Of a DNA stretch of 64,000 bases, positions 38,856-56,004 are shown in pieces. Every line of letters begins with the position of its first letter. The stretch's first letter is position 1. Source of the DNA: Gordonia pseudamarae (GTDB lineage: Bacteria; Actinomycetota; Actinomycetes; Mycobacteriales; Mycobacteriaceae); contig NZ_CP045809.1 in the NCBI RefSeq assembly GCF_025273675.1, positions 1,178,001 to 1,242,000 on the forward strand, read 5' to 3'. A program made the position numbers and the translations under genes. The notes beneath the pieces were generated by a model that was not told the origin of the DNA, did not search any database, and saw only the letters and a list, made by a program, of their open reading frames with translations.

Positions 38856-40481
38856 ATGGCACGGCATATCAACGCGGGCGGCGGCACGGCTGCCGGATTC
38901 GGGCGGTTGCGTGCCCGGCGACGGGGCAGGGCGCTGATCGGGGTGGCACTGGTGGCCGTGCTGATCGGCGGTGTGCTGGTGTACCGTCACCTTGCCGACG
39001 GTTGCGGCGGTGAACGGACACAGATCTCGGTGATGACCGATGCCGCGGTGGCCGAGCCGCTGGGGCCGATCGCGGCGGCGGCATCGAAGAACTCCTGCTT
39101 CGACTACCGCATCGCCGCGGTCGCCAATGTCGACGTTCCGGGCAGGTTGAGTGCGCGCGACACCTCCGTGGACCTGTGGCTGGCGGATTCGCAGACCCGG
39201 GCCCGCCGGGTCACCGAACAGGTGCGCATCAAGACCGATCTGGTGGCGCCCTCGGTGGCCAGTTCGCCGGTGGTGGTGGTGGGCAGCATGCTGGGCAGTC
39301 CGAAGAGCTGGGTCGAGGTGATGAGCATGCCGAAACTACAGGTCGGCAATCCGATCGATACGTCGACGGGAGAAGCTCCGATCATCGGCGGGGTGGCATC
39401 GCTCGCGGCCGGAAAGATCTCGCAGTCCACATTCGTCCAGGCGATGACGATGATGGCGACGCAGCGACACAGCGTCGCGGTCGGCAAGGACAGCGACGAC
39501 GCCCGGTTCGCGCTCGCCAACACCTCCGACGTCCCCACCGTGGCCAGCGAACAGCAGTACCTGTCGTTCCTGCGCGGCAATCCCGGTTCGAGACTGATGG
39601 CCAAGGTTCCCGCCGAGGGCACGGTGATGCTGACCTACCCGCTGGTCAACACCGCTCAGCAGGCCCGCCGCGACCTCGCGGCCCGGGCGGGGCGGCGTCT
39701 GGTCGAGTCGGCCGAGTCCATTAGCGGCCGTAAAATCCTCAACGAGAAGGGTTTCCGTTCCGCGGACGGTACCGGGATCGGTTCGGCGGTCACGGTGCTC
39801 ACGTTCGACGACACCGCCGTGATCGACAAGGCATTGCAGAACTGGCAGATCTTCGCCATTCCGACGCGGATGCTCGAGGTGCTCGACACATCGGGTTCGA
39901 TGCGGACACGCACCGGAGGCGCCTCACGTGCGGAGTTGGTGGCCGAGGCGACCGTCGGGGGTCTGGAGCTGCTCGGCAACAGTGCGAAGGTCGGATTGTG
40001 GATCTTCGGCATCAACAAGGGCGGCAAGGGCAAGGACTGGAAAGAGGTCGCCCCGATCAGGCGCCTCGACGACAGGTCCGCAGGTTCCCGTCACCGGGCA
40101 CGCCTGGCCGCGTTGATCCGAAAGGCGATGTCCGACAAACTCGGCGGTGGCACCGGGCTGTACGACACCACGCTCGCCGCCTACAAGCGGATGGTGGACA
40201 CCTACGATCCGACCACCACCAACACCGTCGCCATCGTCACCGACGGCAAGAACGAGGACGCCGACAGCATCACCCTTGACGAACTCCTCAGTCAGCTCGC
40301 CTCCCTACAGGACCCGGGTCGGCCGGTGCGGATCGTCGCCATCGGGGTGTCCGATGAGGCCGACGAGTCGGCGCTCAGGAAGATCGGCGAGGTCACCGGC
40401 GGAACCAGCTACATCGCCCGCGAGCCCAAGGACATCAAGGGCATCTTCACCACAGAGGTGTCCAAGCTCGTGCAGGACTGA
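38856..40481 (+). CDS. SBP-VWA membrane protein, paralog A
   Basis: Protein of 541 residues, one of four paralogs in this window. One membrane segment (about residues 28-46) follows a basic N-terminus. A ~280-residue substrate-binding-like domain comes next, with a probable disulfide (GCGGERTQ..NSCFDY), the DLWLADSQTRARRV segment, GEAPIIGGV and SEQQYLSFLRGN. A VWA domain follows with a complete MIDAS: DTSGSM (Asp344), GGGTGLYDTTLAAY (metal Thr) and TDGKNEDADS (Asp). ATG 38856 gives MARH, which matches MGRH and MVRH starts in paralogs B and D; an earlier ATG at 38817 is possible. Function is unknown; the domain order suggests an extracytoplasmic ligand- or metal-dependent adhesion role. It lacks neighbours of the same type. 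Confidence 0.85.
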   Translation: MARHINAGGGTAAGFGRLRARRRGRALIGVALVAVLIGGVLVYRHLADGCGGERTQISVMTDAAVAEPLGPIAAAASKNSCFDYRIAAVANVDVPGRLSARDTSVDLWLADSQTRARRVTEQVRIKTDLVAPSVASSPVVVVGSMLGSPKSWVEVMSMPKLQVGNPIDTSTGEAPIIGGVASLAAGKISQSTFVQAMTMMATQRHSVAVGKDSDDARFALANTSDVPTVASEQQYLSFLRGNPGSRLMAKVPAEGTVMLTYPLVNTAQQARRDLAARAGRRLVESAESISGRKILNEKGFRSADGTGIGSAVTVLTFDDTAVIDKALQNWQIFAIPTRMLEVLDTSGSMRTRTGGASRAELVAEATVGGLELLGNSAKVGLWIFGINKGGKGKDWKEVAPIRRLDDRSAGSRHRARLAALIRKAMSDKLGGGTGLYDTTLAAYKRMVDTYDPTTTNTVAIVTDGKNEDADSITLDELLSQLASLQDPGRPVRIVAIGVSDEADESALRKIGEVTGGTSYIAREPKDIKGIFTTEVSKLVQD

Positions 40482-44871: not shown

Positions 44872-45018
44872 TCGGGCAAGGGCAGCTCTGTGTCGGTTGA
44901 CGACCTGCGTGATCCTACCAGCGGCCGAGGTGTCCGCGGTGGAGTCACCGGTGCGGTAATCACCGCGCCTGCGGGTCGAAGCCCGACACGGCCGGAACAC
45001 GCCGCTAATGTGGTCGGA

Positions 45019-46218
45019 GTGAGTCAGAGTCCCCCACGGAGCACCGTGTCGCAAGCCGCACGGCGAGCTGTGTCCTCGGCCGCCTCCGCCACCCGACAGG
45101 CCGCGGGCGGGGCCGCCACGAAGCTGGCGGGGACCGGCGTCCCGGTGGTCCGCGCGCTCGGTGCCGGCCGCGAGCAGATCCGGCCGCACGTTCAGGACTC
45201 GCCCCATCAGCGGGGCGGGCGTTTCACCAACATCGAACCGCCGAGCCCGCCGGTGGAGTCCGACGGGTCGTTGCTGCGCGACATGGTGCGCAGGCCGGGC
45301 AGGCCGCAGCGACCGGTGCGGGTCCTCACCCCCGCGTTCACCCTTCCCGGATTCGACGACGCCCGCGCCGACCTGGCCGCCACCTGGCTCGGACATGCGA
45401 CGGTCCTGGTCGAACTCGACGGCGTGCGGATCCTCACCGATCCCGTGCTGAGCAGACGTTGCTCACCGAGCGAACTGGTCGGCCCCGCACGGCTGCATCC
45501 GGCGCCGTCGACGGTCGCCGGGCTGCCCGTCGTCGACGTGGTGCTGATCAGCCACGATCACTACGATCACCTCGACTACGAGACCGTCGTCGAGATCGCG
45601 CTGACCCGCCCCGAGGTGCTGTTCGTGGCGCCGGTGGGCGTCGGGGCGCACCTGCAGGCGTGGGGGATCGCGCCCGAACGCATCCGGCAGGCCGACTGGG
45701 GCCAGGCGCTCACGCTGCCGGTGGCGGGGCGGTCGATCACCTTCACCTGCTGCCCTGCCCGGCACTTCTCTGGCCGGTTCCTCGACCGCAACCTCACCCA
45801 GTGGGCGAGCTGGGGTGTCCGGGGGCCCGCGCACAGCTTCTTCTTCTCCGGCGACAGCGGTTTCACCGAGCGGTTCGCCGAGACCGGGGCCACGGTGGGA
45901 CCGTTCGACCTGACACTTATCGCGATCGGCGCCTACGATCCGCTCTGGCCCGACATCCACCTGAACCCCGAGGAGGCGATCACGGTGCACCGGATGCTCT
46001 CGGGGTCCTCGGTGGGCGATGCGGTTATGATGCCGATCCATTGGGGCACATTCAATCTGGCACGGCACACCTGGTCGGACCCGGTGCGGCGACTGTTGCC
46101 CTCGGCGCAGTCGGAGGCCGCCGCGGTGCTCATCCCGCCACCCGGTGGCCGCATCGACCTGATCCACAGGTCGGGCGACGGACTACACGATCCGTCCTGG
46201 TGGGAGCGATCGGCGTGA
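45019..46218 (+). CDS. MBL-fold metallo-hydrolase (UlaG/NAPE-PLD-like)
   Basis: Metallo-beta-lactamase fold protein of 399 residues. A ~100-residue Pro/Ala-rich N-terminal region precedes the catalytic core. Metal ligands are [21 protein letters not shown] and the late MPIHWGTF. The [28 protein letters not shown] block is typical of the UlaG/NAPE-PLD group. GTG at 45019 is used (VSQSPPRS); a GTG at 45010 is an alternative. Phosphodiesterase or lactonase activity is plausible but not determined. The position matches the metallo-hydrolase Rv0906 near ctpE. Confidence 0.88.
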
Positions 46219-46255: not shown

Positions 46256-48739
46256 ATGACGCGGACCGACAAGATCGACATGTTTCCCGGCCTGTCGGCC
46301 GACGAGGTGGCGCAACGGGTGGCGGCCGGGAAGGTCAACGCCCTGCCGGACCGGTCCGGGCGCACCGTCGGCGAGATCGTCCGGGCCAACGTGTTCACCA
46401 GGATCAACGCGATCCTCGGTCTGCTGTTCGTGATCGTCGCGGTCACCGGGTCGTTCAAGAACGGGCTCTTCGCGCTGATCCTGGTGGCCAACAGCGGCAT
46501 CGGCATCTTCCAGGAGATCCGGGCCAAGAAGACCCTCGACGCCCTGGCAATCGTCGGGCAGACCCGCCCCATCGTGCGCCGCGACGGCGTCGCCGCCGAT
46601 CTGGCCCCAGACCAGGTGGTGCTCGACGACATCATCGAGATCGGCTCGGGCGACCAGGTCGTCGTCGACGGCGAGGTGGTGACGGCGGCGGCGCTGGAGG
46701 TCGACGAGTCGCTGCTGACCGGTGAGGCGGATCCGATCCACAAGCAGCCCGGCGATCAGATCCTGTCGGGCAGTTTCGTGGTGGCCGGTTCGGGGGCGTA
46801 TCGCGCCACGAAGGTCGGCGCCGATGCCTACGCCGCGCAGCTGGCGGCGGAGGCGTCCAAATTCACCTTGGTGTCCTCGGAACTGCGCGCCGGCATCGAC
46901 AAGATCCTGAAGGTGATCACCTGGCTGCTGATTCCGGCCGGTGTGCTCACCATCGTCAACCAATTGTTCATCAGCGACAACGGTCTCAAGCGGGCGCTGC
47001 TCGGGATGGTCGCGGCCCTGGTGCCGATGGTTCCCGAGGGTCTGGTGCTGATGACCACCATCGCCTTCGCGGTGGGTGTGGTGCGCCTGGGCGCGCGCAA
47101 GTGCCTGGTGAACGAGTTGCCCGCGATCGAGGGGCTGGCCCGGGTGAACGTGGTGTGCGCCGACAAGACGGGCACCCTGACCGAGAACGGTATGCGCCTG
47201 GGCGAGGTCCGCGCGGTGGACGGCAGCGGTGCGGACTTCGCCGATGTCCTGGCCGCGCTCGCCGCGCACGATCCGCGACCCAACGCCAGCGTCGCCGCGA
47301 TCGGTGAGGCATACCCGGATGCACCGGACTGGTCGACCACCGCGATCGCCCCGTTCACCTCGGCCAAGAAGTGGAGCGGTATGTCGTTCGCCGACGCCGG
47401 CGGCTGCCGGGGCAACTGGCTGCTCGGTGCCCCGGACGTGTTGCTCGACCCGGACACCGACATCGCCCGCACCGCGACACAGATCGGCGAGACGGGGCTG
47501 CGGGTGCTGCTGCTCGGCGCCACCGACGTGCCCGTGGACACCGATGTCCCGGCCGGTCCGGCCGGTGTCGTGCCCGGCACGCTGATCCCGCGCGCGCTGG
47601 TGGTGCTCGAACAGCGGGTGCGCCCCGACGCCCGCGAGACGCTCGAGTACTTCGCCGATCAGAACGTGTCGGTGAAGGTGATCTCCGGTGACAACGCACG
47701 TTCGGTCGGCGCAGTCGCGGCCTCGCTGGGGCTCGGCTCGGTGGACACCTCCGTCGATGCCCGTACCCTGCCCGACGACCAGGACGCGCTCGCCGACGTG
47801 GTGGAGGACGGCGTCACCTTCGGCCGGGTGCGCCCGGATCAGAAGCGGGCGATGGTCAAGGCACTGCAGAGCCGCGGCGACACCGTCGCGATGACCGGTG
47901 ACGGCGTCAACGACGTGCTGGCGCTCAAGGACGCGGACATCGGCGTGGCGATGGGTTCGGGCAGTTCGGCATCGCGGTCGGTGGCGCAGATCGTGTTGCT
48001 GGACAACAAGTTCGCCACCTTGCCCTATGTCGTGGGCGAGGGCCGGCGGGTCATCGGCAATATCGAGCGGGTCTCCAACCTGTTCCTCACCAAGACCGTG
48101 TACGCGGTGCTGCTGGCCATCTTCATCGGGGTGGGCGGCGTGGTGGGCTGGATGTTCGATGTCGACTCGATCAGCTACCCGTTCCAGCCGATCCACATGA
48201 CCATCTCCAACTGGTTCACGATCGGGGTGCCGGCGTTCGTCCTGTCGCTGGCACCCAACAACGAGCGCGCCCGAACCGGCTTCGTGCGCCGGGTGCTCAG
48301 TCAGGCGGTGCCCAACGGCATCATCATCGGTCTGTGCACGTTCGTCACCTTCCTGATCGTCAATCCGGGCGGCATGGGTCCGCAGCTGGGCGCCGAGGAT
48401 TCGGTCGACCTGACACCCGATCAGACGCAGGCGGCCACGGCCACCCTGCTGACGTTGATCGCGGTCGCCTGGTACGTGCTGGCGGTGGTGGCGCGGCCGT
48501 ACAACTGGTGGAAGATCGTGCTGCTGGCGGTGTCGGCGGGCGCCTACGTGCTGATCTTCCTCGTCCCCTGGTCGCAGGACATGTTCCTGCTCGACGTGTC
48601 CGATCCGCAGAAGTTGGCGGTCGGCGCGGTGTCCGCGGCGGTGGGCATCTGCTGCGTGGAAGTTGTGCAGCGTGTGCTGGCGGCCCGCGCGGCACCCGGG
48701 CCGCAGGTGCCGACGACCCACTCCGATGCCCTACTCTGA
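46256..48739 (+). CDS. ctpE: P-type ATPase, CtpE-like cation transporter
   Basis: HAD-superfamily P-type ATPase of 827 residues, most like Rv0908 CtpE, reported as a Ca2+ uptake pump. Motifs are the LTGEAD actuator signature, the phosphorylation site [12 protein letters not shown], the nucleotide-binding [12 protein letters not shown], the [12 protein letters not shown] hinge, and membrane helices before and after, including [10 protein letters not shown]. The N-terminus has no metal-binding domain, unlike copper pumps. It is preceded by the MBL gene and followed by the Rv0909/Rv0910-like genes, as in M. tuberculosis. Confidence 0.93.
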
Positions 48740-48797: not shown

Positions 48798-49031
48798 ATG
48801 GATCTCGGCGGTCTCGTGAACAAGGCCAAGCAGGCGCTCAAGAAGAACCCCGATCTGATCGAGAAGGGCGGCGACGCCGTCGACAAGGCCACCAAGGGCA
48901 AGTACGTCGGCCAGGTGGACAAGGCGCAGGACGCGGTGCGCAAGGCGGTCGGCGCACAGGACAAGGGTGCTGAGAACAAGGGTGCCGACAACAAGGGTGC
49001 CGACAACAAGGGTGCCGACAACAAGGGTTAG
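48798..49031 (+). CDS. Antitoxin-like small protein (Rv0909-like)
   Basis: Basic helical protein of 77 residues (MDLGGLVNKAKQALKKNPDLIEKGGDAVDKATKGKYVGQVDKAQ..). It matches the Rv0909 family annotated as an antitoxin by position. The C-terminus carries four 5-residue units (GAENK, GADNK, GADNK, GADNK) encoded by a 15-bp repeat. The AGGAGA ribosome binding site precedes the ATG at 48798. The predicted partner is the SRPBCC protein 212 bp downstream. Toxin-antitoxin function is established only for the mycobacterial pair and is inferred here. Confidence 0.7.
   Translation: MDLGGLVNKAKQALKKNPDLIEKGGDAVDKATKGKYVGQVDKAQDAVRKAVGAQDKGAENKGADNKGADNKGADNKG
48966..49026 (+). repeat. 15-bp coding repeat at the 3' end of the antitoxin-like gene
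   Basis: The AACAAGGGTGCCGAC unit (first copy GAGAACAAG) is repeated about four times and produces Gly-Ala-Asp-Asn-Lys pentapeptides up to the stop codon. Confidence 0.85.
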
Positions 49032-49243
49032 CGCGAGGGATCAGGGCGCGGCAGGTGCGGCCGAATCGGTGGCCGCAGGCGTGATCAGGACCGTATTCGG
49101 TTCCAGGCCACATGTGTTCGTTGGTGCCGGGGCGGTGCCGGACCGCGCTCACATTATTCGGGATCGAGAAGAATGTATCGAATTTCTCGAATATTACTCC
49201 CTGGTAGCAAGGATTTGTGCTGTGGGCGCTAGGCTGCTCAACC
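49032..49243. other. Intergenic spacer between the Rv0909- and Rv0910-like genes
   Basis: 212 bp with no gene. The right half (49140-49220) is AT-rich with ATCGAATTTCTCGAATATTA, giving an unusual break in a GC-rich region. It probably contains a separate promoter for the SRPBCC gene. Confidence 0.5.
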
Positions 49244-49684
49244 ATGGCAAAGGCAAGTAACTCGATCAGCCTCGACATATCGGTGGACGAGGCGTGGGCA
49301 GCCGCATCGGATCTGGCGCGCTTCGACGAGTGGCTGATTCTGCACGACGGCTGGCGCGGCGACGTGCCCGGCGAGTTGAGCGAGAAGCTCAAGGTCACCT
49401 CCGTGGTGTCGGTCAAGGGTGCCCGGATCAGATTCGACTGGGTCATCGATCGGTACCGCCCGCCGGTCGAGATCCGGCTGTCCGGAAAGGGTAAGGGCGG
49501 CATCAAGGCGACGCTCGACCTGGCCATCACGGCATCGGGCACCGGTTCGACGGTGACACTCGGGATCGACCTGGGCGGCTTGCCGCTGATCGGACCGGCC
49601 GGAAAGGCCGCGGCGAAGGCGGTCGAGGGGGATCTCGCGGTTTCTCTGCAGAAGTTCCGGCAGGTCTTCGCCTCGGAACAGTGA
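49244..49684 (+). CDS. SRPBCC-fold protein (Rv0910-like)
   Basis: Protein of 146 residues of the START/SRPBCC (Bet v 1-like) hydrophobic ligand-binding fold. It starts MAKASNSISLDISVDEAWAAASDLARFDEWL and has a C-terminal long helix. The same fold is annotated as toxin Rv0910 beside Rv0909 in M. tuberculosis. ATG at 49244 is used. It could be a small-molecule binding protein; a toxin role is inferred from neighbourhood only. A second SRPBCC gene lies at 58519. Confidence 0.82.
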   Translation: MAKASNSISLDISVDEAWAAASDLARFDEWLILHDGWRGDVPGELSEKLKVTSVVSVKGARIRFDWVIDRYRPPVEIRLSGKGKGGIKATLDLAITASGTGSTVTLGIDLGGLPLIGPAGKAAAKAVEGDLAVSLQKFRQVFASEQ

Positions 49685-49918: not shown

Positions 49919-51595
49919 ATGGGACGACATAACGACGACATGGGCGCGACCAGCGGGAGATTGCCCGCAGCCCGTGGCCGCGACGCCGACCTCGACGGCG
50001 CCGACGGTTTCGGTTTCGACAAGCAGCGTGGTTCGCGCCGCCGCTGGGTGTGGGGAGCGCTCGCCGTCGCGCTGGTGGCGATGCTGGTGGGCAGCTCCTT
50101 CGTCTGGCGCTCGGCAGCCGATTCGTGCGGTGACCATTCAGTCACCGTGGCCGCCGACCCGGCGATCGCCGAGGTGATGACCGAGATCGGCAAGCGGGCG
50201 AGCGCGGACTCCTGCTATACGTTCGCGGTGGAGTCGGTGGCGGGCAAGGACATTCCCGCCCGGCTGGCCGACGGCGACAGGTCTCCCGACCTATGGGTCG
50301 CCGACTCCGCGTATCAGACGAGCCGGGTCGGTGCGCAGGTTCGCCGCACCCTGGCCGAGGTGTCGCCGTCGGTCGCATCCTCGCCCGCGGTGATCGTGGG
50401 TCGATCGGTCGCCGACTACGACAGCTGGGTCGATGTGATCGGCCGTTCGGACCTGCGGGTGAGCAGTCCCATCGACTCGGCCACCGGCAACGCGCCGATC
50501 ATCGGCGCCGTGGCGGGTGCGGAGAAGGGCAAGATCGCCCCCGCCAAGCTCGCCGAGGCGATGAGTGCGATGGCGGTGGCACAGAACAATGTGCGCAAGT
50601 CCGACGAGACTGATCAGGAACGACTCCAGCTGGCCAACACGTCGAGCGTACTGGCGGTGACCACCGAGCAGCAGTACCTGAACTTCGTGCGCGTGAACAC
50701 CGGATCGCAACTGACCGCCAAGACCCCGGCCGACGGCACCGTGCTGCTGGAGTACCCGCTGGTGAACAGCGCGAGCGAGGCCCGACGTGCCGATGCGGCC
50801 GGGGCCGGCAAGGCGCTGGCCGCTGCCGCTGCTTCCGACGAGGGTCGAGATCTGTTGGGCAACGCGGGATTCCGCAATCCCGACGGCTCGGGGATCGGTG
50901 ACAAGGTGACCGAACTGACGATTGCCGACCCCAAGGGCCTGGACAAGGCGATGAACCAGTGGCAGGTTCTGGCGGTACCGATGCGAACGCTCGTCGTCCT
51001 CGACGGCTCGGGTTCGATGCAGGCGACCATCGGTGACTCGACCCGTGCCAAGGTCCTCATCGAAGGGGCGTTGGAGGGTCTGCGCCTGTTTCCCAACAAT
51101 GCGCAGGTCGGTTCCTGGCTGTTCGGCATCGACAAGGGCGGTCCGGGCATCGACTGGGACCAGCTGGCCCCCATCAAACGCCTGGACAGTCCCGGTCATC
51201 GTGAGAAGCTCGTCTCGGTGACCAATGACGCGCTGACCAACCGGCTCGGCGGCGGTACCGGTCTGTACGACACGGCACTCGCCGCGTATACAAAGGTGCA
51301 GGATTCCTACGATCCCAGCTACTCCAACAGCGTCATCCTGATGACCGACGGCACCAACGAGGACGAGGACAGCATCACCCTCGAGCAGTTGCTCGCCGAG
51401 CTCAAGCGGCGCCAGGATCCGGCCCGCCCGGTGCTGCTGGTCACCATGGGTATCTCCGACGACGCCGATACCACCGCGCTCAAACAGATCGCGAATGTCA
51501 CCGGAGCGACCACGCACGTCGAGCGCAGCGTCGATGATGTCAAGGGAGTGTTCTACGAGGCGATCGCCGCCCGTCTCGCGGCCGCCGGCCGGTGA
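49919..51595 (+). CDS. SBP-VWA membrane protein, paralog B
   Basis: Protein of 558 residues with the same layout as paralog A. The N-terminal tail of ~45 residues includes GDxD-rich stretches. A membrane helix follows (WGALAVALVAMLVGSSFVW), then the extracellular substrate-binding-like domain (SCGDHSVT..DSCYTF, DLWVADSAYQTSRVG, NAPIIGAV, TEQQYLNFVRVN) and the VWA domain with DGSGSM (Asp362), GGGTGLYDTALAAY and TDGTNEDEDS. The MIDAS starts DGSGSM rather than DTSGSM but keeps the metal residues. It starts at ATG 49919 (MGRHNDD). Paralog C begins 51 bp later, suggesting one transcript. Confidence 0.85.
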   Translation: MGRHNDDMGATSGRLPAARGRDADLDGADGFGFDKQRGSRRRWVWGALAVALVAMLVGSSFVWRSAADSCGDHSVTVAADPAIAEVMTEIGKRASADSCYTFAVESVAGKDIPARLADGDRSPDLWVADSAYQTSRVGAQVRRTLAEVSPSVASSPAVIVGRSVADYDSWVDVIGRSDLRVSSPIDSATGNAPIIGAVAGAEKGKIAPAKLAEAMSAMAVAQNNVRKSDETDQERLQLANTSSVLAVTTEQQYLNFVRVNTGSQLTAKTPADGTVLLEYPLVNSASEARRADAAGAGKALAAAAASDEGRDLLGNAGFRNPDGSGIGDKVTELTIADPKGLDKAMNQWQVLAVPMRTLVVLDGSGSMQATIGDSTRAKVLIEGALEGLRLFPNNAQVGSWLFGIDKGGPGIDWDQLAPIKRLDSPGHREKLVSVTNDALTNRLGGGTGLYDTALAAYTKVQDSYDPSYSNSVILMTDGTNEDEDSITLEQLLAELKRRQDPARPVLLVTMGISDDADTTALKQIANVTGATTHVERSVDDVKGVFYEAIAARLAAAGR

Positions 51596-51646
51596 ACGTT
51601 CGGACTTCGGTCGCGGCGGCGATCGGGAAGAAGGGTGGCACCGATC

Positions 51647-53272
51647 ATGAGTCGATCCGATGAGTTCGGATTCGCGGAGGAGGGCGGCGGCCGGCGTCGT
51701 GTCCTGCAGATAGTGCTGGCCGCGATACTGGTGGTCACGGGCGTCGCCGGCGTGCTGGTGTGGCGTGGACAGTCCGGCGGCTGCGGTGACCGTACGCCGG
51801 TGACGGTCGCCGCCGACCCCACGATTGTCGGGACTGTCCGTTCGCTGGCGGAGATCGCCGAGGACGACGGCTGCTTCGACTATCAGGTCGACGAGGTCGC
51901 CGGAGCCGACGTGCCGGGCAGGCTGACCAGCGGCGACGACAAGTCGCCGCAACTGTGGGTCGCCGACTCGCAGACCCAGGCGCGGCGGGTCAGCACACAG
52001 GTGCGCAAGACCCCCGACTACGTCACCGAATCGCTGGCTTCCACGCCGACGGTGGTGGCCGGTACCACGATCGGCCCCCTCGCCTCGTGGGTCGATGTGA
52101 TGAAGCTGCCGGACCTGAGGATGGGCAGCCCGATGGAGACCTCCACCGGGGACGCGCCGATCATCGGCGCGCTGGCCGAGGTGAAGGCGGGCAGGGCCAA
52201 GTCCAGCGAACTGATCCAGGCGCTGTCGGTCCTGGCGATCCAGCAGAACAACGCCCGGCCGGCCAACGACAGCGAGGCGACCCGGCTGAATCTGGCCAAC
52301 GTCGAGGGCATCCCGGTGGTCACCACCGAGCAGCAGTTCTCCCAGTTCCAGCGTCGGCACCCCGATTCGGCGCTGACCTCGAAGATCCCCCGGGACGGCA
52401 CGGTCATGCTCGACTATCCGCTGCTCAACACCGCGGGCCGGGGCAGCAAGGCCGCGGCGGCCGATGCGGGCGAGGAACTGGTGGCGGCGGCATCGTCGGA
52501 GCGAGGTCGCGCGGTGCTGCACGGTGCCTCCTTCCGCAACCCGGACGGCAGCGGGTTCAGTGACAAAGTGACAGTGCTCGACAGCGGCGATGCCGAAATG
52601 GTGGACAAGACGCTGCGGCAGTGGCAGGTGCTCGGTATCCCGATCCGCACCCTGTTCATGATCGACACCTCCGGGTCCATGCGGGAGTCGGCGGGGTCCT
52701 CGACGCGGGCGCAGCTGCTGACCGAGGCGTCGATGCAGGGGCTAAAGCTGTTCCCCAACAATACGCAGGGCGGTGGCTGGATCTTCGGGATCAACAAGGG
52801 CGGCCCGGGGCAGGACTGGAAGGAACTGCTCCCGATCCGCCGGTTCGACGCCGCGTCGTCACGTGGAACCCACCGGGACGATTTTGTGGCCGAGGTCACC
52901 CGTGCGATGACCGAGGATCTCGGCGGTGGCACGGGGCTGTACGACAGCGTTCTCGCGGCGTACAAGTACGTCCAGGAGGGATACGACCCGACCTACTCCA
53001 ACAGCGTCATCGTGCTGACCGACGGCCGTAACGAGGACGCCGACAGTATCGGTCTCGACGAATTGCTGGCCACCCTCAAGGAACTCGCCGACCCGGCGCG
53101 ACCGGTACTGGTATTGACCATCGGGATCTCCGCCGACGCCGACGCCGATGCGCTGGAGCAGATCGCCGAGGCCACCGGGGGCAGCAGCTATATCGCCGAG
53201 ACCGCGGCCGATATCCAGTCGGTGTTCATCAACGCGATCGCGGCGCGGGTGCAGGCGGCCCGGCAGGGCTGA
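51647..53272 (+). CDS. SBP-VWA membrane protein, paralog C
   Basis: Protein of 541 residues. The short cytoplasmic start MSRSDEFGFAEEGGGRRR is followed by a membrane helix, then the substrate-binding-like domain (GGCGDRTP..DGCFDYQ, QLWVADSQTQARRV, DAPIIGALAEVKAG, TEQQFSQFQRRH) and the VWA domain with DTSGSM (Asp340), GGGTGLYDSVLAAYKYV and TDGRNEDADS. ATG 51647 follows GAAGAAGGG; an in-frame GTG at 51635 is an alternative. It sits between paralog B and a decayed fragment. Identity to B and D is visibly greater in the VWA half. Confidence 0.85.
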   Translation: MSRSDEFGFAEEGGGRRRVLQIVLAAILVVTGVAGVLVWRGQSGGCGDRTPVTVAADPTIVGTVRSLAEIAEDDGCFDYQVDEVAGADVPGRLTSGDDKSPQLWVADSQTQARRVSTQVRKTPDYVTESLASTPTVVAGTTIGPLASWVDVMKLPDLRMGSPMETSTGDAPIIGALAEVKAGRAKSSELIQALSVLAIQQNNARPANDSEATRLNLANVEGIPVVTTEQQFSQFQRRHPDSALTSKIPRDGTVMLDYPLLNTAGRGSKAAAADAGEELVAAASSERGRAVLHGASFRNPDGSGFSDKVTVLDSGDAEMVDKTLRQWQVLGIPIRTLFMIDTSGSMRESAGSSTRAQLLTEASMQGLKLFPNNTQGGGWIFGINKGGPGQDWKELLPIRRFDAASSRGTHRDDFVAEVTRAMTEDLGGGTGLYDSVLAAYKYVQEGYDPTYSNSVIVLTDGRNEDADSIGLDELLATLKELADPARPVLVLTIGISADADADALEQIAEATGGSSYIAETAADIQSVFINAIAARVQAARQG

Positions 53273-53275
53273 CCC

Positions 53276-53511
53276 GTGATGGGACTCGCACCCGGTGGGC
53301 AGGGCGCCGGTCCGGGTCCCCTCGACGTACCGCCGTGGCCACCAACCGGGGTGTGGGTGGCCACGGCGCTGGCTCTGGTCTGCGCGCTTGTCGGCGGTGT
53401 TCTTGTGTGGCACAACGTATCCGGTGGCCGTGGTGATCGTGGTGCCGTGGTGATCGTGGTGCGGTGACGGTCGTCGCCGAGGCCGGATCCGGCTCTTCGG
53501 AGCATTCCGGG
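53276..53511 (+). pseudogene. Remnant of a fifth SBP-VWA paralog (N-terminal fragment)
   Basis: A 63-residue reading frame starts MMGLAPGGQGAGPG, then TGVWVATALALVCALVGGVLVWHN, matching the membrane helix of paralogs B-D. It ends at GRGDRGAVVIVVR, where the family normally continues as CGGDRTDITVVADPTIA. The next frame carries TVVAEAGSGSS, which continues the pattern out of frame. The local GATCGTGGTGCCGTGGTGAT repetition suggests slippage caused the frameshift. The conserved cysteine is lost. It is probably nonfunctional. Confidence 0.7.
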
Positions 53512-53766
53512 TAGCCCGTTACTTCCTTGGTCGGAAAAAATATCGACGGTGGAGATTAAAGGCAATTGCGCAAATACTATATGAAATCTTGAATTGCGAA
53601 TGTCATCGGCAAGATGCATCGCGGCTTCTGGCTGATTCTCAGAATATCCACTACCATCCATTCCTGTCGGGGTTTCGAAAAGCCGAAGTAAGTGCGTCTT
53701 CTCGGGGTGTGGGTCATCGGAAGGTGGCTGCGCCTACTTCGGTGTGGAACAACGAGTGGGGAGACG
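53512..53766. other. AT-rich island before SBP-VWA paralog D
   Basis: About 255 bp with markedly lower GC (for example GGAAAAAATATCGACGGTGG and ACTATATGAAATCTTGAATT), unlike the ~67% GC around it. It follows the paralog remnant and ends in the ribosome binding site of paralog D. It holds a weak inverted repeat CCGAAGTA (53683-53690) / TACTTCGG (53735-53742). It may be a promoter region or scar of transferred DNA. Confidence 0.6.
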
Positions 53767-55455
53767 ATGGTGCGGCACGGCACTTCCGGTGGGCATGGGC
53801 ATGGCGGTTCGGCTGCGATATCGGGCGGATTCTCCATCAGCGAGTCCGAATCCGACGGCGACGCCGGGCGTGGTCGCGGCCGTCCGGGGATGTGGGTGCT
53901 CACCGCGCTTGCCCTGGTGGTGATCCTGATCAGTGGGGTCATCCTGTGGCGCAGCGTCGGGGGCAGCTGTGGTGGTGACCGCACCGATATCACGGTGGTG
54001 GCGGACCCGACCATCGCGCCGACACTGACCTCCCTGGCCGAGAAGGCATCGCAGGATTCGTGTTTCGACTACCGGGTCGACGCGCTCGCCGGTGGCGCCG
54101 TGCCCGAACTGCTCACCGGTACCGACAACGTCCCCGACCTGTGGGTGGCCGATTCGCAATACCGTGCTCGCCGGGTTGCCGCACAGGTCCGCCTCGGCTC
54201 CGGGGCGGTGACGCAGTCGCTGGCCACCTCCCCCGCGGTGGTGGTGAGCACGCGCAGCATCACCTTCGACACCTGGGTGGACGTGATGAAACTGGTCAAC
54301 CTGCGGATCGGCAACCCGGCATCGTCGACCCTGGCCGACGCTCCGATCATCGGCGCACTCGACGCCGCGGCATCGGGCAAGGTGAACGGTCGCTCGCTCC
54401 TGACGGCGATGGCGGAGATGGCCGCCCAGCGCAACAACGTGGCACCGCTGGAGGACACCGAACAGGCGCGATTGACGCTGGCCAATTCCTCCACCGTCCC
54501 GGTGGTCACGTCCGAACAGCAGTACCTGCAGTTCCTGCGGGGCAACGCGGGCTCCCGGCTCCTGGCCACCACACCCGCCGCGGGAACCGTGCTCGTCGAC
54601 TATCCGCTGGTCGTCGCGGGGGGTGAGAACCGTGACCGCGCCGAGAAGGCGGGCCAGACGCTGACGAACACGGCCCGCTCGGATGCCGGGCAGGAGATCC
54701 TCAACAGTGCCGGATTCCGCGATCCCGACGGCTCCGGGGTCGGCGACGCCGTCAAAACCCTGTCCGTGGAACCAGGCAAGCTCGACGCCGCACTCGATCA
54801 GTGGCACGATCTGAGCCTGCCCACCCGCACGATCATGGCCATCGACACCTCCGGTTCGATGGCCGCTGCGGCGGGCGACTCGACGCGGGCGGGACTGCTC
54901 ACCGAGGCCGTGACCAATGCCTTCACGCTGATCCCGCGCAACGGCGTGGTCGGCGTGTGGATCTTCGGGATCGACAAGGGCGGCCGCGGTACGGACTGGA
55001 AAGAAGTAGTGCCCTCCCGGCGCCTGGACGCCAAGGTGGGCAACCAGGTGCAGCGGGAGATGCTGGTCGCCGGGGTGCGGGAGGCGATGACCACCGAACT
55101 CGGCGGCGGAACCGGGCTGTACGACACGATCCTGGCCGGGTACAAGACTATGCTGGACACCTACGACCCCAACTACTCGAACACCTTCACGGTGCTCACC
55201 GACGGGCGCAACGAGGACTCGCAGAGCATGTCGCTGAGCGAACTGCTCAAGCAGCTCAAGGCGCTGGCAGATCCGGGCCGTCCGGTGCGGGTCATGGCGA
55301 TGGGCATCTCCCGGGACGCCGATGTCGCATCACTGACCGCGATCACCGACGTCACCGGCGGGGCGACCTTCGTGGCGACCGATCCGAGCAAGATCAGAAC
55401 CTTGTTCGAGGATGCGGCGCGGACGCGGCTGGCCTCCGCGGGCAGCACCAGATGA
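53767..55455 (+). CDS. SBP-VWA membrane protein, paralog D
   Basis: Protein of 562 residues. A ~42-residue Gly/His/Ser-rich N-terminus (MVRHGTSGGHGHGG) is followed by a membrane helix (MWVLTALALVVILISGVILW). The substrate-binding-like domain has SCGGDRTD..DSCFDYR, DLWVADSQYRARRVA, DAPIIGALDAAASGK and SEQQYLQFLRGN. The VWA domain has DTSGSM (Asp360), GGGTGLYDTILAGYKTMLDTYDPNYSN and TDGRNEDSQS. The ATG at 53767 is preceded by GGGGAG. It is separated from paralogs B-C by a remnant and an AT-rich island and probably has its own promoter. Confidence 0.86.
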   Translation: MVRHGTSGGHGHGGSAAISGGFSISESESDGDAGRGRGRPGMWVLTALALVVILISGVILWRSVGGSCGGDRTDITVVADPTIAPTLTSLAEKASQDSCFDYRVDALAGGAVPELLTGTDNVPDLWVADSQYRARRVAAQVRLGSGAVTQSLATSPAVVVSTRSITFDTWVDVMKLVNLRIGNPASSTLADAPIIGALDAAASGKVNGRSLLTAMAEMAAQRNNVAPLEDTEQARLTLANSSTVPVVTSEQQYLQFLRGNAGSRLLATTPAAGTVLVDYPLVVAGGENRDRAEKAGQTLTNTARSDAGQEILNSAGFRDPDGSGVGDAVKTLSVEPGKLDAALDQWHDLSLPTRTIMAIDTSGSMAAAAGDSTRAGLLTEAVTNAFTLIPRNGVVGVWIFGIDKGGRGTDWKEVVPSRRLDAKVGNQVQREMLVAGVREAMTTELGGGTGLYDTILAGYKTMLDTYDPNYSNTFTVLTDGRNEDSQSMSLSELLKQLKALADPGRPVRVMAMGISRDADVASLTAITDVTGGATFVATDPSKIRTLFEDAARTRLASAGSTR

Positions 55456-55545
55456 TCGCGCCGGATGTCCGTTTTCTGAGGATTTGCTGGTGATCCGGCC
55501 CCGTGGCGTGCAATCTTGCGGGGGTACACGGCACAATCTGGAGTC

Positions 55546-56004
55546 ATGACCTCTACGAGAGCGCCCGAGCGCGGGGCTGTGATGCGTGCGTCCGGACTGG
55601 CTGCGACCGTTGCGGTGGTCGGGCTGGCCGTCGGAGCCTGCGGTGACGACTCGGATTCGGCCGACACGACCACGACCACCAGCGCCGAGAACGTCGCCGT
55701 CTCCTACAAGGACGGCACCTACTCCGCCACCGGCCCGTACGTCACCCCCGGTGGCGAGCAGAACATCGGGGTGACGGTGACCCTCGCGGCCGGCACCGTC
55801 ACCGCCCTGGAACTCGACCGGAGCTACGCCAAGGGCACTTCGGCGTCGTTCCAGGAGAAGTTCGCGAGCGGTATCGACGAACTCGTGATCGGCAAGAGCA
55901 TCGATGAGCTCGACGACGTCAAAAAGGTCGCCGGTTCCTCGCTCACGTCGGGCGGATTCAAGAAGGCCATCGCCCAGATCAAGGAGGATGCCGCCGCCGG
56001 ATAG
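55546..56004 (+). CDS. FMN-binding domain lipoprotein
   Basis: Secreted lipoprotein of 152 residues. A signal peptide with lipobox LAVGAC (Cys32) is followed by a Thr/Ser-rich linker (residues 36-45), and the FMN-binding-domain core GTYSATGPYVTPGGEQNIGVTVTLAAGTVTALELD ends with GIDELVIGKSIDELDDVKKVAGSSLTSGGFKKAI. Covalent FMN would attach at the C-terminal Ser/Thr region. ATG 55546 follows TCTGGAG. It may act in an extracytoplasmic electron transfer. It lies 90 bp after paralog D. Confidence 0.85.
   Translation: MTSTRAPERGAVMRASGLAATVAVVGLAVGACGDDSDSADTTTTTSAENVAVSYKDGTYSATGPYVTPGGEQNIGVTVTLAAGTVTALELDRSYAKGTSASFQEKFASGIDELVIGKSIDELDDVKKVAGSSLTSGGFKKAIAQIKEDAAAG

Follow-up and report, generated by a model that had tools for sequence, protein, structure and literature searches.

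The stretch of DNA analysed here (the window) covers 64,000 nucleotides of the forward strand of Gordonia pseudamarae, a bacterium of soil and sludge (contig NZ_CP045809.1, positions 1,178,001 to 1,242,000) and carries four intact genes for proteins that fuse a substrate-binding protein (SBP) half to a VWA half. All four lie on the + strand, each encoding a membrane helix, the SBP half and the VWA half. Copy A (38856..40481; open reading frame, ORF, from 38658) stands between an enoyl-CoA hydratase gene and an XdhC-family gene. Copy B (49919..51595; ORF from 49838) occupies the usual Gordonia position, and is followed by copy C (51647..53272; ORF from 51635) and copy D (53767..55455; ORF from 53692). 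The starts of all four (38856, 49919, 51647 and 53767) are those suggested by the N-terminus of the family, and the gene calls come from a simple G+C script that leaves the starts of neighbouring genes approximate. Between C and D lies a remnant (copy E; 53279..53506, +) that keeps the region of the membrane helix and a few residues from the start of the SBP half. The ORFs and the matches of the remnant bear out what had been described from the sequence alone: B, C, D and a 5' remnant in a row, with A apart. The distance of 11 kb given for copy A holds from start to start (11.1 kb before B); the intervening gap is 9.4 kb. A fifth intact copy was found beyond the window at C1:739648-741162 (the 739-kb copy), and the remnant, which had been called a decayed fifth copy, is real and therefore the sixth.

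Each of the four window proteins consists of an N-terminal tail, one strong hydrophobic helix (copy A has one extra marginal hydrophobic window), a cysteine pair, the SBP half and the VWA half. Basic residues precede the helix and the cysteines come after it. Pfam reports SBP_bac_11 above cut-off in A, B and D, not in C, and VWA (PF00092) above cut-off in B and C, just under it in D (23.4 vs 23.8 bits), and not in A, where the VWA half gives weak VWA_2 and VWA_3 matches only. Despite these missing calls, copies C and A align throughout with the others. The metal ion-dependent adhesion site (MIDAS; D-x-S-x-S, T, D) has 5/5 positions in A, B, C and D, and both MIDAS and cysteine pair are also complete in the 739-kb copy. 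Thus the shared helix, cysteine pair, SBP-like half and full MIDAS of the sequence-only reading are found in all four copies, which align at 44-50% identity: copy A is 44-46% identical to B, C and D, and the B-C, B-D and C-D pairs reach 47-50%. The helix, an SBP_bac_11 half and a VWA half in that order, with MIDAS and cysteine pair complete, mark these proteins as members of an actinobacterial SBP-VWA family. Among 67 collected sequences, window copies included, MIDAS is complete in 64 and both cysteines are present in 63.

Copy number, descent and decay

The number of copies varies widely among 37 Gordonia genomes. Six genomes have none, 28 have one, G026 has two (one of them cut by a contig end), Gordonia pseudamarae has five and Gordonia amarae has nine (eight full copies and one fragment), the last two being the only genomes with five or more. 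A single copy in all relatives, which had been named in advance as the finding that would speak against a family under expansion, is therefore the state of those 28 genomes and not of the Gordonia pseudamarae/G. amarae lineage. In three of the one-copy genomes the gene is a divergent copy (~38% identity) at another place; these are the loci L031, L034 and L035, whose genomes have none at the usual site. G193 and G065 have tandem pairs too, and the tendency to duplicate is therefore not unique to this lineage.

The fusion itself is common. A sample of 249 genomes from the order had it in 122 (E <= 1e-20); with 5 candidates scored per genome, this survey sets lower limits on copy number. A homologue search that scored 8000 candidates gave the 101 matches taken for further analysis. 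NCBI names it 'substrate-binding and VWA domain-containing protein'. The earlier description of the array as an undescribed system was thus overstated, while no functional study of the SBP-VWA fusion was found in the open-licence literature.

The extra copies are the product of one lineage-specific radiation. In a tree of 47 rows with Williamsia outgroups, the copies used from Gordonia pseudamarae, G. amarae and G026 form one clade (support 100/97); an earlier tree without the Williamsia rows did not resolve them as such. B, C and D each pair with a G. amarae orthologue, and their lines therefore predate the split of the two species. Copy A pairs with the 739-kb copy (97/90), and the order in which B, C and the D/E/A group branch has weak support (88/41). 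Copy C is the nearest of the genome's five copies to a single-copy Gordonia protein (62% to P0032). Left out of the tree were the near-duplicates G001, G014, G019, G031 and G034, the L105 copy, whose gene call runs into that of a neighbour, the third copy of G193, the three divergent copies from Gordonia and nearly every row from other families; P0007 stood in for the short B fragment of G026, and no single branch separated the Rhodococcus outgroup from the rest.

Purifying selection acts on copies B, C and D. Compared with the G. amarae orthologues, their ratio of nonsynonymous to synonymous substitution rates (dN/dS, NG86) lies at 0.15-0.27 for the SBP and VWA halves and at 0.31-0.43 for the tail and helix. 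These values bear on two other explanations of the array. The first is neutral drift of a gene family, with the extra copies largely redundant and heading for loss; the decayed copies described below are what it would predict, as is the presence of two copies only in G026. Set against it is the retention of B, C and D since before the split from G. amarae at low dN/dS over both halves, and we regard drift as a minority explanation, of small but appreciable probability. The second is a cell-wall or surface adhesin, whose VWA half would bind extracellular matrix or a wall polymer and whose copies would diversify for surface variation. VWA MIDAS domains commonly work in adhesion, and copy number differs strongly among close relatives, as such a role might lead one to expect. 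However, selection on B, C and D is purifying overall, not diversifying, and no wall anchor or adhesin repeat was seen by Pfam in the four window proteins, so that an adhesin is doubtful, with a chance that we put no higher than that of drift.

Positions 53348-53506 of the remnant match the membrane-helix region of D (tblastn, E 1.3e-4), and 53346-53417 are 76% identical over 72 bp to L021 13720-13791 (E 5e-8), which encodes the membrane-helix part of the fourth gene in the array of Gordonia amarae (G033). A full-length counterpart of the remnant thus sits at the same place in the G. amarae array. The remnant carries a 17-bp tandem duplication at 53427-53460, followed by an in-frame stop, and a search for VWA-half sequence belonging to it found no match.

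The G. amarae counterpart (L021 13425-15308) is itself decaying. The Thr of its MIDAS is replaced by Arg, and of 92 columns without variation across the other 13 clade copies examined, it differs at 15; the same scoring applied to each of the other copies gives 0-6 departures in 92-98 columns. Its own departures fall at 13 of 49 invariant VWA columns and 2 of 40 invariant SBP columns; being concentrated in the VWA half, they indicate that in G. amarae the docking half erodes and the binding half stays. The same copy is therefore decaying in two ways, by erosion of the VWA half in G. amarae and, in Gordonia pseudamarae, with the helix end alone left. A second type of decay is seen in G. amarae at L039 3763-4197, where the helix end and SBP start are joined to a VWA tail by an internal deletion. 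MIDAS is incomplete in three of the 67 collected sequences altogether, and two distant genomes (G037, G042) pair a MIDAS-incomplete copy with an intact one. The two distant relatives with incomplete MIDAS are L058:7981-9681 and L076:7538-9331, each with an intact copy in its genome too.

With 0-9 copies per genome, one expanded clade, two remnants and one partly lost MIDAS, the proposal of a family under duplication and loss holds. The sequence-only reading was right in its observation, which it somewhat understated, and is partly supported in its interpretation.

An AT-rich spacer (53501..53714, no strand) separates the remnant from D and includes the lowest 180-bp G+C of the window (0.44). 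It has no second copy in its own genome and no match in G. amarae (G033), G026 or a plasmid collection, and a repeated element was rejected as its source. Among six comparisons with stretches of the sister loci, one beat all 200 shuffles, barely (27 vs 25); it was with the spacer upstream of the G. amarae D gene. An AT-rich spacer also lies inside the G. amarae array (L021:11345-11539, 0.43 G+C), and it does not align with that of the window. Both are possibly silencer-bound or promoter DNA.

Likeness of the two halves and a possible mode of action

The halves were compared with solved structures through an alignment profile (A2) of 64 rows, in which 63 of the 101 homologue matches were aligned with the window ectodomain; searches with single sequences and with four rows gave nothing useful. 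A profile search for the closest solute-binding fold, which had been proposed as a check, leads to ModA (4xxu, E 1.4e-11; 1amf, E 1.3e-10), and the sulfate-binding lipoprotein 6ddn was also matched (E 7.3e-7). In ModA the ligand contacts include Ser12 and Ser39, according to a table in PMC8895017. The A2 columns that face them, read off the printed alignment by eye, hold Ser in 12 and 11 of the 64 rows, respectively, and in copy B they hold Ala109 and Gly136. Molybdate binding in the manner of ModA was rejected, given that these ligand serine columns are mostly not Ser.

The two halves are conserved to different degrees. The five MIDAS positions are identical in 64/64 A2 rows, and columns conserved in >=85% of rows make up 26 of 256 in the SBP half vs 64 of 197 in the VWA half (Fisher p 6e-9). 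Among 13 copies of the expanded clade, the decaying copy left out, invariant columns number 40 of 256 vs 49 of 197 (p 0.017).

On the strength of these sequence features, we would give an even chance to the reading that the array is the radiation of a binding protein with two extracytoplasmic domains and a membrane anchor, which uses its MIDAS to dock a partner. Judged by the charge and cysteines on its two sides, the helix would place the SBP and VWA domains outside the membrane. The SBP half would then bind a small ligand, probably not molybdate held in the fashion of ModA, and the VWA half would use a divalent metal to grip an acidic group of a partner, which may be a protein or a polymer of the wall. 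Binding of the ligand might alter the strength of the VWA docking. Duplication would add further SBP halves and cytoplasmic tails, while the metal-docking half would stay more constant.

Several results weigh against this reading. Matches of the VWA half to solved chains were weak (A2 profile, best E 2.6e-4), SBP_bac_11 was missed by Pfam in copy C, and about one-sixth to one-fifth of the rows do keep Ser at the columns facing the ModA ligand serines. Inside the expanded clade the SBP half exceeds the VWA half in variation by a modest margin, and B and its orthologue agree to the same extent in both halves (79.3 and 79.7%); it may also be that SBP halves simply evolve at a higher rate. Furthermore, six SBP positions (W153, P183, P211, E277, P307 and R346, B numbering) are invariant in 64/64 A2 rows and argue for one shared ligand, not the several that the sequence-only reading had thought possible.

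A bolder form of the two-domain docking reading is ligand-gated docking in which paralogues share the metal-docking half and take different ligands, MIDAS-damaged paralogues act as decoys or ligand-only receptors, and the system may tune Ca2+ use at the mycolic-acid envelope beside the calcium pump CtpE. We consider this very improbable. The damaged paralogues that it would draw on are the one in G. amarae and those of the two distant genomes, each of which has an intact copy as well. This is a widespread actinobacterial fusion for which searches of the open-licence literature found no function, and the lineage provides a natural series toward finding one: relatives with 0, 1, 2, 5 and 8 full copies, intact orthologues under purifying selection, and a copy with an eroding docking half and a conserved binding half.

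Gene setting

The usual Gordonia site of the SBP-VWA gene is the 3' end of a cluster that in the window comprises, all on the + strand, an MBL-fold protein (Lactamase_B_2; 44890..46218; Pfam scan and synteny), a CtpE-like P-type ATPase (46256..48739; assigned by its VPEGL motif and gene order, with no NCBIfam equivalog passing), an MT0933-like antitoxin (48798..49031; Pfam PF14013, E 4.3e-13) and, as 5' neighbour of the SBP-VWA gene, an Rv0910-family toxin (49217..49684; NCBIfam NF047960, 160 bits against a cut-off of 100, and synteny). Thirty-two Gordonia genomes or metagenome-assembled genomes have the gene (31 of the 37 Gordonia and UBA7599), and in 28 of them it is the next gene 3' of the Rv0910-type toxin, with the same orientation; 27 of those loci also show CtpE, the G015 stretch ending before it. 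The remaining four are G026, whose upstream side is off the contig, and the three divergent copies at other places.

From this arrangement the SBP-VWA protein could be taken for a sensor or an auxiliary subunit of the calcium pump CtpE, with the MIDAS and SBP halves acting on Ca2+ uptake or surface use, loosely as alpha2delta subunits (VWA plus Cache domains) serve animal Ca2+ channels. CtpE of M. smegmatis pumps Ca2+ into the cell; its operon extends to the two genes downstream of ctpE and is Ca2+-repressed (PMC5615198). However, the three divergent copies, copy A, the 739-kb copy and three full G. amarae copies lie away from the usual site, and 9/9 Gordonia genomes without the gene there still have MBL, CtpE and the Rv0910-type toxin. 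No genome of the group g23, taken to be Mycobacterium, matched the SBP-VWA family in the 249-genome survey. In another genus of the family (L106 of G271 and L105 of G224), MBL, antitoxin and SBP-VWA gene stand in a row with no CtpE between, an observation that covers the cluster only, as CtpE elsewhere in these two genomes was not looked for. An obligate CtpE partnership was rejected on the nine sites and these two clusters, and a role as pump subunit is in our view very unlikely. The nine sites likewise bear out the earlier remark that the conserved backbone of the region does not explain the expansion.

On the other side of the array, 60 bp after D, lies a gene for an FMN_bind-like probable lipoprotein (55516..56004, +; 18.6 bits, below the cut-off of 22, with its L026 relative above it at 23.6). 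In 20 of 29 Gordonia loci such a gene comes directly after the SBP-VWA gene or array, and genome-wide it is present in 20 of 28 genomes with a canonical SBP-VWA gene vs 1 of 9 without (Fisher p 0.002). These counts speak for the SBP-VWA protein as partner of an extracytoplasmic flavin electron-transfer chain of FMN_bind lipoprotein, ApbE flavin transferase and NqrB/ferric-reductase-like membrane protein. So does the persistence of one FMN_bind-like gene by the array when an NqrB-like gene and a second FMN_bind-like gene lie elsewhere in the genome, at G000:C1:1158716-1161539 (L121), ~16 kb before the window; between these two stands a gene that looks like ApbE by eye. Against the partnership, eight genomes have SBP-VWA without the lipoprotein and G035 has the reverse, and the 40 loci beyond the genus gave no FMN_bind, ApbE or NqrB match (E <= 1e-10). 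On the CtpE tree the absence of SBP-VWA needs 2 changes only, and a sign test on independent pairs gave a median p of 1, with pairs too few to reach 0.05. A statistically safe FMN_bind link was rejected, the raw Fisher value losing its support once the tree is allowed for, and we judge the flavin partnership unlikely.

No neighbour is common to most of the 40 loci beyond the genus. The commonest neighbour cluster there, ABC ATPase-like by eye, occurs in 7 of 40 loci from four families, and others recur within one family. The setting is read as an inherited position and no proof of partnership.

Comparison with known systems

Two further candidates were set aside. Models of the anti-phage defence collection PADLOC gave only a weak TerY match in copy A (E 0.0057), which led to rejection of a known defence system, and a link to TelA and toxic anions was dropped, as the part of PMC2875224 available holds nothing on the SBP-VWA fusion.

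ModA (SBP_bac_11; 1amf, 4xxu) provides the best solved sequence matches of the SBP half. Unlike ModA, the window proteins are helix-anchored and fused to VWA, and their columns at Ser12 and Ser39 are mostly not Ser. With MIDAS VWA domains (PF00092, PF13519) they share the complete D-x-S-x-S, T, D set; as a difference, the VWA domain of the window proteins follows an SBP half and probably lies outside the membrane. No ABC permease, ModB/ModC or MoxR AAA+ ATPase was found among the 11 window genes around the array and the three L026 genes scanned, other neighbours being unannotated.

The alpha2delta subunits of animal Ca2+ channels, as far as the available source text describes them, likewise combine an extracytoplasmic VWA-MIDAS domain with a ligand-binding domain. 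This would be an analogy and no relationship: alpha2delta has Cache domains where the window proteins have an SBP half, and the apparent link to CtpE here is adjacency alone, CtpE also occurring without the gene. The mycobacterial ctpE operon resembles the cluster of the window in its MBL protein, CtpE and two small downstream genes; in the available part of its description (PMC5615198) no SBP-VWA gene is mentioned.

The closest relatives are the actinobacterial proteins that NCBI names 'substrate-binding and VWA domain-containing protein', which have the same domain order and a similar length, and of which the window proteins are members. Where 28 of 37 Gordonia genomes have one copy, the genome studied here has a tandem array, dispersed copies and a remnant. 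New here are the spread of copy number among Gordonia, the single radiation, the G. amarae counterpart of the remnant and the non-obligate nature of the neighbours.

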